The notes below the pieces were generated by a model. That model ran no database searches. It had not been told where the DNA came from and saw only the letters and a program-made list of their open reading frames with translations. Both the position numbers and the translations under genes were made by a program. Of a stretch of DNA of 64,000 bases, positions 41,131-42,478 are shown piece after piece. Position 1 is the first letter of the stretch. Each line of letters begins with the position of its first letter. Source of the DNA: Cellulomonas iranensis NBRC 101100 = JCM 18110 (GTDB taxonomy: Bacteria > Actinomycetota > Actinomycetes > Actinomycetales > Cellulomonadaceae); assembly GCF_001552375.1 (NCBI RefSeq), contig NZ_BCRB01000004.1:1-64000 (forward strand). Direction: 5' to 3'.

Positions 41131-41352
41131 CCGGTCGGTCGCCCGCCCTCGCCGGCCCGGTCCCGGGGACGGCAGGCAGGAGTGTCACCCGCCCGGCGTG
41201 GCAGACTCGGCGGGTCGTGCCCGCGTGAACGGGCCGGCAGGTCCGCGGCGAGCCGCACAGCGTGGGCCGACCGTCTCCGCGCGAGGCGGCCCCGACGGCA
41301 GGCGTCGGCGACACTGGACGGCAGCAACCGCGTTTTTCGTCGAGGAGTCGTC

Positions 41353-42438
41353 ATGCCCCAGGCCACCGTCCGTTGGTTCGACACCGAGCGAGGCTTCGGC
41401 TTCCTCGCGCTCGAGGACGAGGGCGACGACCTGTTCGTCCACGCGTCCGAGATCGTCGGCGACTCCTCGCGCGGCCTGCGCGAGGGCCAGGCCGTCGAGT
41501 ACGAGCTCGGCGAGGGCGACCGCGGCCCCGTCGCCCGCAAGGTCCGCGTCACGGGCGACGTCCTGGCCGACGCGTCGCTCGGGCGGCTCGGCACCGTGAG
41601 CTGGTACGAGCCGACCAAGGGCTACGGGTTCGTCACGCCCGACGGCGACGGCGCCGAGATCTTCCTGCACTCGTCCGCGATCGTCGGCGGCGGGGTCGTC
41701 ACCGAGGGTCAGCGCGTCGCGTTCCTCGTCGTCCCCGGCGAGAAGGGCCCGCAGGCCGACCACCTGCTGCCGCTCGGCCCCGACGCGGCACCCGCGGGTG
41801 CCGGTGCCGCGAGCAAGGACGACGGCGCCGACGGCACCGTCACGTTCTACGACGCCGACAAGGGCTTCGGCTTCGCGACGGTCGACGACGGCAGCGAGGA
41901 CGTGTTCGTGCACGCCCGCATGCTGCAGGGCGTCACCGAGCTCGCCGAGGGCGACCGCATCAGCTTCACGGTCGTCGCGGGCGAGCGCGGCCCGCAGGCC
42001 ACCGACGTGCGCCTCGTGGGCGGGACGCGCCCGCGCCGGTCGTCGGCCCCCGCGGGTCGCGGCCAGGACCGCGGCCGCTCGGGCGGGTTCGACCGCGGGT
42101 CCGACCGCGGTGGCTACGACCGGGGCGGCGACCGTGGGCGCTCCGACCGCGGCGGCTACGACCGGGGCGGCGACCGTGGGCGCCCCGACCGCGGTGGCGA
42201 CCGCGGCTCCGACCGCCGGTCGTCCGGTGCACCCGCGCGCGGCGGCGAGGGCGTCGTCGCGCGCTACGACGCCGACCGCGGCTTCGGCTTCATCCGCCCC
42301 GACGCGGGCGGCGACGACCTGTTCGTGCACGTGTCCGTCGTCCGCGGCGGCGAGGCGCTCTACGAGGGCGACCGCGTGCGCTTCAAGGTCCGCCAGAGCG
42401 ACCGCGGCCCGCAGGCCGACGGCGTCGAGCTGCTCTGA
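41353..42438 (+). CDS. Four-domain cold-shock protein with RGG-like linker
   Basis: A 361-residue nucleic-acid-binding protein with four cold-shock domains. Domain 1 (1-67) starts ATVRWFDTERGFGFLA; domain 2 (about 76-140) GTVSWYEPTKGYGFVTP; domain 3 (about 157-222) GTVTFYDADKGFGFATV; domain 4 (about 295-361) GVVARYDADRGFGFIRP. All keep the RNP1-like GFGF/GYGF and LFVH-type RNP2 motifs. A 70-residue Arg/Gly/Asp linker with 14-residue repeats (GGYDRGGDRGRSDR) precedes domain 4. Normal bacterial Csp proteins have one domain. AGGAG lies six bases before the ATG; the 220-bp upstream gap could hold a thermoregulated leader. An RNA chaperone role is inferred. Confidence 0.9.
   Translation: MPQATVRWFDTERGFGFLALEDEGDDLFVHASEIVGDSSRGLREGQAVEYELGEGDRGPVARKVRVTGDVLADASLGRLGTVSWYEPTKGYGFVTPDGDGAEIFLHSSAIVGGGVVTEGQRVAFLVVPGEKGPQADHLLPLGPDAAPAGAGAASKDDGADGTVTFYDADKGFGFATVDDGSEDVFVHARMLQGVTELAEGDRISFTVVAGERGPQATDVRLVGGTRPRRSSAPAGRGQDRGRSGGFDRGSDRGGYDRGGDRGRSDRGGYDRGGDRGRPDRGGDRGSDRRSSGAPARGGEGVVARYDADRGFGFIRPDAGGDDLFVHVSVVRGGEALYEGDRVRFKVRQSDRGPQADGVELL
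42109..42192 (+). repeat. Tandem 42-bp coding repeat
   Basis: Two copies (42109-42150, 42151-42192) encode GGYDRGGDRGRSDR and GGYDRGGDRGRPDR in the Arg/Gly linker; they differ at two or three bases. Confidence 0.9.
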
Positions 42439-42443
42439 TCGTC

Positions 42444-42478
42444 CCGTCGGTGGGTGCCCTCGCGGCACCCACCGACGG
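42444..42478 (+). terminator. Strong terminator after cold-shock gene
   Basis: Perfect 15-bp stem CCGTCGGTGGGTGCC / GGCACCCACCGACGG with 5-nt loop, six bases after the stop. Confidence 0.9.

Follow-up and report, generated by a model that had tools for sequence, protein, structure and literature searches.

Cold-shock proteins of the CspA/CspB type (PDB 1mjc, 1csp, 5o6f) consist of a single OB-fold cold-shock domain (CSD) of about 70 aa with an FGF and FxH core. Bacterial cold-shock proteins (Csps) are described as single-domain in the abstract of PMC7825780, and the two-CSD CspD of Caulobacter crescentus is an exception to this rule (PMC4830024, in excerpt). In animals, Unr/CSDE1 forms a multi-CSD array; according to the excerpted text of PMC7383231, its five RNA-binding CSDs alternate with four non-binding CSDs that lack FGF and (F/Y)FH. 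A search of open-licence PubMed Central full text turned up no bacterial protein described as having at least three CSDs. Here we examined a protein of Cellulomonas iranensis that shares the OB-fold domain and the FGF and FxH core of the CspA/CspB type but has four diverged domains, loss of the outer aromatic residues and an Arg-rich linker. CspD, also from a bacterium, likewise goes beyond a single CSD; it has two domains and no Arg-rich linker reported in the excerpt of PMC4830024, a distinction drawn from its description rather than its sequence.

The window, a 64,000-nt stretch of the C. iranensis genome, carries an unbroken open reading frame at 41353-42438 (+), from the ATG at 41353 to the TGA at 42438, which encodes a 361-aa protein (P0001) with no internal stops. 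A GAGGAG ribosome-binding site precedes the ATG (41342-41347, +), and GAGGAG or AAGGAG is found at the same place in most orthologs. The Pfam CSD family (PF00313) matched the protein in four separate stretches, with an E-value of 3e-76 for the whole protein. Eight CSDs were found in a search of the 3.97-Mb genome: four in separate single-domain genes and four, each above the family cut-off, in the 361-aa protein. The search placed the four domains at 41359-41550 (d1), 41590-41766 (d2), 41830-42015 (d3) and 42247-42429 (d4), all on the forward strand. An Arg/Gly/Asp-rich linker of 73 aa, with a net charge of +9, separates d3 from d4 (42022-42240, +). Within it a repeat search located a 42-bp tandem repeat encoding SDRGGYDRGGDRGR units (42100-42198, +; 2.4 copies, 94% matches, score 184). 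The first-pass annotation had described one protein with four cold-shock domains and 42-bp DNA repeats, and both parts of that description were confirmed.

Relatives were collected in a contig scan that returned 261 encoding stretches, and the best 80 of the 261 loci were analysed. A CSD profile made from d1-d4 of the window protein was used to count domains in 118 loci. Five of these come from the window; four others are single-Csp loci, with one CSD apiece, and in L099 d4 is on a separate contig. Among the best 80 of 261 loci, 79 carried four CSDs in order; the remaining locus, L063, was truncated by a contig end and had three. The 80 proteins referred to below are the window protein and those of 79 loci, with L063 left out, and they do not represent 80 independent observations: close relatives are among them, and one genome contributes both L074 and L075. 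These two copies (Cellulomonas sp. HZM contig4; G023) face opposite ways at a distance of about 45 kb, with flanks that match over the compared part, and the pair may be either a duplication or an assembly artefact.

The earlier annotation had raised a frameshift joining separate genes as a finding that would overturn it. Such errors do occur, as d4 was in another reading frame in two genomes (G088, locus L135, and G199, locus L157). With the four-domain ORF present at 79 of the 80 homologous loci and truncated by a contig boundary at the other, chance or a frameshift is excluded, and the window's own ORF has no stop. Frameshift or misassembly of separate genes is therefore an exceedingly improbable source of the array.

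Among genomes of the genus, 65 of 72 (own included) had a multi-domain match with a best E-value below 1e-40, as did 5 of 46 genomes of other families in the same order sample. A wider order sample gave 24 matches below 1e-40 in 149 genomes; of these, 10 came from the 11 genomes of the same family and 14 from six further families. Two of the 24 are G088 and G199, where the shifted frame of d4 may reflect either sequencing error or decay. In the class sample, 4 of 148 genomes passed 1e-40 (G000, G293, G237, G306) and G238 fell just short at 3.1e-40; G306 and G238 carry a divergent multi-CSD type, which leaves orthologs in 3 of 148. Only the C. iranensis genome itself reached an E-value of 1e-20 or better in the phylum sample (1 of 119). 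The four-CSD protein is thus frequent in the window's own family and its neighbours, occurs sporadically in the rest of the class and was not seen beyond the class in our sample.

The gene is absent from 7 of the 72 genus genomes (two of them 61% and 67% complete), indicating that the protein is dispensable. The genomes without it include G004, G031, G036, G047 and G071, which are 97-100% complete, and several of these are small (2.5-3.7 Mb). Where present, it is under purifying selection, with pN/pS of 0.39-0.51 against six orthologs (six of the 21 in alignment A1). Carriage on a mobile element was considered and rejected: 80% query coverage was reached in 0 of 64 matching phage records and 0 of 1126 matching plasmid records, and the matches were to single CSDs.

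The gene is flanked by a hexapeptide acetyltransferase on one side and an ABC transporter operon on the other. An operon with the downstream transporter was rejected as a family trait, since any ABC ATPase match was present at 7 of 79 loci and at the same place only at L049, the one locus of 79 with the downstream transporter region in common. The four-CSD gene is self-standing and has no conserved neighbours. Its share of C-ending codons was 0.69, compared with 0.45-0.47 for the neighbouring ABC genes; however, the upstream acetyltransferase (0.64) and two single Csps (0.46-0.62) had shares that preclude any conclusion about expression from codon bias.

Upstream regions of the orthologs were mutually dissimilar except for one element, GCGACACTGG in the window (41308-41317, +; family form GGGACAcTGG), found by upstream comparison. 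A motif of this kind anchored 79 of 80 upstream regions and lay 39-45 nt before the start in 77; the two anchored exceptions were at 18 and 54 nt, and L030 has a variant that the anchor missed. The anchor columns were chosen by the motif search itself, and the exact-pattern count is the fair measure: exact GGGACA[AC]TGG precedes the gene at 48 of 79 loci, and the 837,506 bases of these loci contain just two further copies. An extended form of the pattern occurred once in the 3.97-Mb genome, at the four-CSD gene. By eye, the element was not seen at the four single-Csp genes of the same genome. We propose that this promoter-like element is a promoter. Within it, GACACT (41310-41315, +) has the second-place A and sixth-place T that would fit a -10 box, but the first base is always G, and no -35 conservation is visible. 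As a -10 box it would give a leader of about 30 nt; cold-induced Csps have a long 5' leader. A consensus scan of the window for sigma-70 promoters and T-run terminators returned nothing, and an Rfam search of the window found no RNA family. A shared 5' palindrome, GACA...TGTC, was visible by eye in some relatives but absent from the window and was dropped. Past the stop codon by 5 nt, the inverted-repeat listing gave a perfect 15-bp GC-rich hairpin with a 5-nt loop (42444-42478, +), a possible terminator without a T run. As a family terminator it was rejected, with a stem of at least 10 in only 7 of 80 orthologs. L009 likewise has a hairpin after the stop (13 bp), in surroundings of different sequence.

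The first-pass annotation had called for a phylogeny of the four domains. A first domain tree contained the domains of 28 of the 80 proteins and the four single Csps of the same genome; a second combined the domains of 12 proteins with 16 singles and 21 domains taken from other multi-CSD proteins. Both were built on about 67-69 columns and have many unresolved forks and unsettled bootstrap values. In the first tree d1, d2, d3 and d4 each formed one group on one side of a branch, with supports of 72/74, 100/99, 90/87 and 100/98; the support for d1 is moderate. In the second tree d2, d3 and d4 were again single groups (100/100, 96/92 and 99/93), and a long-branch single Csp, L006, fell inside the d1 group. 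Because the groups are position-specific across species, the four-CSD array predates the sampled genera. The array is thus old, and its domains do not homogenise. Mean identity was 83% for d4, which is among the most conserved domains and yet sits on a long branch. L006, from the window's genome, is a 127-aa protein with a CSD and a 60-aa C-terminal part without a Pfam match, similar in size to the 134-residue M. tuberculosis CspB entry 9xw3.

These comparisons bear on whether the array is a gene-dosage device, that is, four Csps fused for co-expression with a function no greater than that of single Csps. The domains are ordinary CSDs by their identity to the genome's single Csps (42-54% for d1 and d3, 38-50% for d2, 44-46% for d4). 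However, the genome also has four single-CSD genes, and the four domains share only 33-50% identity with each other and carry invariant position-specific changes, unlike a uniform dosage array. We regard a dosage role as quite improbable.

Residues were numbered as in a single Csp of the window's genome. In each of the four domains, F/Y28 is present in 100% of the 80 proteins and F/Y15, F17 and H30 in 99-100% of them. All four domains therefore have the FGF/YGF and FxH core, and none of d1-d4 is a pseudo-CSD of the Unr kind. Position 8 was W in every d1 and d2, W (78%) or F (22%) in d3, with F in the window, and R in d4 of all 80 proteins. R7 is invariant in d1, and d2 has the YGF form and a short L3 loop. 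At position 31, after FVH, d1 has A, d2 has S, d3 has V or A (an aromatic in 2%) and d4 has V, and the loop aromatic at position 39 was replaced or deleted in the array domains. In the window protein both positions are non-aromatic in all four domains. At least 11 of the examined singles keep aromatics at 31 and 39; L006 does not. All four domains have thus lost the two outer aromatics found in ordinary Csps. With four CSDs in 361 aa and no aromatics at 31 and 39, the protein falls outside the single-domain Csp class. The fold and the FGF/FxH core bear out the first-pass description of four intact domains, whereas not all nucleic-acid-binding residues do. Each domain may be a weaker binder than a single Csp because it would make fewer aromatic contacts, judging from the stacking mode described in the excerpt of PMC7825780.

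AlphaFold2, from a 22-row alignment, predicted four confident five-strand barrels (mean pLDDT 79.7, pTM 0.34) and gave pLDDT below 50 at linker residues 229-292. The model shows little fixed arrangement between domains; with so shallow an alignment, the low pTM gives no confident arrangement in which to look for the rigid contacts between neighbouring CSDs that mark Unr. The top four Foldseek matches were Drosophila Unr arrays (CSD789, CSD456 and CSD12, with CSD456 second; E 1.6e-11 to 4.3e-7). The TM-scores by query length were 0.18-0.27, showing that the matches are domain-wise without a shared arrangement. Like Unr, the protein is a multi-CSD array; unlike Unr, whose non-canonical CSDs are described in the excerpt of PMC7383231, it keeps the core in all four domains, and the arrangements are not superposable (rmsd 9.9 at TM 0.27). 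Matches 5 and 7 were bS1 and CvfB-like S1 arrays (PDB 9gut, 3go5), tandem OB-fold beads that unwind mRNA and resemble the four-CSD layout. They belong to another sequence family: Pfam S1 scored 19 bits on the four-CSD protein against a cut-off of 22. Descent from a eukaryotic array was rejected, as it had no support in either domain tree and the domains were closer to bacterial Csps. The likeness to eukaryotic multi-CSD proteins noted earlier did not hold as homology to Unr, given the bacterial-Csp-like domains, actinobacterial position-specific clades and absence of a pseudo-CSD. The protein appears to descend from bacterial Csps and not from the Unr array.

Linker lengths differed with position in the array. 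Across the 80 proteins, the d1-d2 linker was 8 aa in 78 (7 aa in two), the d2-d3 linker 9-28 aa and the d3-d4 linker 19-73 aa, with a median of 27. A length of 73 aa was found only in the window and L009 (Cellulomonas sp. B6); the other 78 of 80 had 19-51 aa. The proposed comparison of linker length between strains thus revealed variation across the family and none between the window and L009, where 19 synonymous and 5 non-synonymous codon differences were seen. The d3-d4 linker averaged 22.6% R, 22.2% G, 16.2% A, 13.5% P, 12.4% S and 0.2% K, with 545 R and 4 K in total over the 80 linkers. Its net charge was at least +2 in 77 of 80 proteins and zero or below in 2, and aromatics were rare (Y 0.1%, F 0.2%). 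R, G, A and P together made up 74.5%; GC-rich DNA favours these residues anyway, so that drift could account for some of the Arg content. The d2-d3 linker of the same proteins had 5.3% R and a net charge of -1.2, and this contrast, together with the loss of Lys, would argue for selection on linker charge. The CSDs together are acidic, with a charge of about -20.

The window's d3-d4 linker contains 27% R, 29% G and 15% D and five RGG. At least two RGG were present in the linkers of only 6 of 80 proteins (mean of 2.0 RG per linker), and a conserved run of RGG/RG repeats, the hallmark of RGG-box proteins, was absent as a family trait among the 80 linkers. The 42-bp repeat was seen in the window and one near relative only among 80 loci; several lineages have repeat units of their own in the linker (L010, L021, L046, L055). 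The RGG-like linker of the first-pass annotation is thus partly upheld: an Arg-rich, nearly Lys-free, basic, disordered linker belongs to the family, and the RGG/YDRGGDR repeat does not. The long repeat is a local expansion of the family-wide Arg-rich linker. Y-box proteins such as YB-1 have one CSD beside an Arg-rich disordered region, a tail with charged clusters. The four-CSD protein resembles them in having a CSD adjoining an Arg-rich disordered segment; YB-1 differs in its single CSD and in having the Arg-rich part as a tail.

Multi-CSD proteins outside the orthologous family were also found in the class and order samples, with four CSDs in L139, L140 and L141 and three in L142, L143 and L156. 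All nine linkers of at least 25 aa in these six proteins had 18-31% R, at most one K and a net positive charge. L139-L143 are divergent, with Arg/Asp-rich repeat linkers and one CSD each with a shortened ITPDDVFVH-like loop. L156 (G143:C2:322800-324700) has three CSDs and two GYDRGGDDRGYDR / poly-Gly linkers that are strikingly similar to the window's linker and share its GYDRGGDR wording. Its domains 2 and 3 grouped with a single Csp in the second tree, which suggests separate assembly. One row from the other multi-CSD proteins joined d4 in that tree (97/89); on reading of the sequences it is probably L142 d2, a likely sister of d4. Arg at position 8 was found in L142 d2 and also in L140 d3.

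The recurrence of Arg-rich linkers in six separate multi-CSD proteins, including the shared wording of L156, is in keeping with a condensate scaffold, as the first-pass annotation had suggested, in which multivalent CSDs and an Arg-rich disordered linker drive RNA-dependent phase separation into RNP bodies under stress. The linker, however, is short in most orthologs and almost free of aromatics, the CSDs are acidic, and no report of such behaviour by a bacterial Csp was found in open-licence PubMed Central full text; we consider a scaffold unlikely. An Unr-like, target-specific post-transcriptional regulator, in which the different domains recognise a set succession of motifs on a small number of mRNAs and d4, with its W8-to-Arg change, provides specificity or binds a protein partner such as RNase or the ribosome, is somewhat more plausible but still doubtful. 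Residues fixed by position over 80 proteins, the conservation of d4 on its long branch and the W8-to-Arg domains in L140 and L142 point towards regulation; the generic binding core kept in all four domains and the lack of any operon or partner gene travelling with the four-CSD gene point away from it.

We favour a conserved, self-standing RNA chaperone or single-strand nucleic-acid-binding protein that engages long single-stranded RNA multivalently, which is the probable role of the protein on the features described. Four CSDs of different fixed character would be strung as beads on spacers of about 8 aa, 9-28 aa and a flexible Arg-rich linker. Each domain would bind a few nucleotides with lower affinity than a single Csp does, and the avidity of four sites with the basic linker would give a tight grip on long unstructured RNA, whether mRNA or nascent transcript, keeping the bound RNA single-stranded. 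The linker would set the spacing between two RNA segments and add charge contacts, its exact length and sequence being free to drift. Four points count against a chaperone: d4, having lost W8 and the outer aromatics, could serve protein contacts rather than RNA; the strong acidity of the CSDs would be unexpected in a general RNA binder; some of the linker's Arg content could come from drift in GC-rich DNA; and the gene is dispensable.

A broader and rather speculative suggestion is that actinobacteria have several times built Unr-like arrays of three to four specialised CSDs with Arg-rich disordered linkers, which would bind long RNA multivalently, form stress RNP condensates and be a bacterial counterpart of eukaryotic mRNP packaging. 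The four-domain form, fixed in most genomes of the Cellulomonas group, and the other multi-CSD proteins with similar Arg-rich linkers in the rest of the class would show that bacteria use multivalent CSD arrays. Such arrays would offer a simple, soluble and genetically tractable system in which RNA affinity, unwinding and possibly condensation can be related to the number and specialisation of the domains and to an Arg-rich linker.
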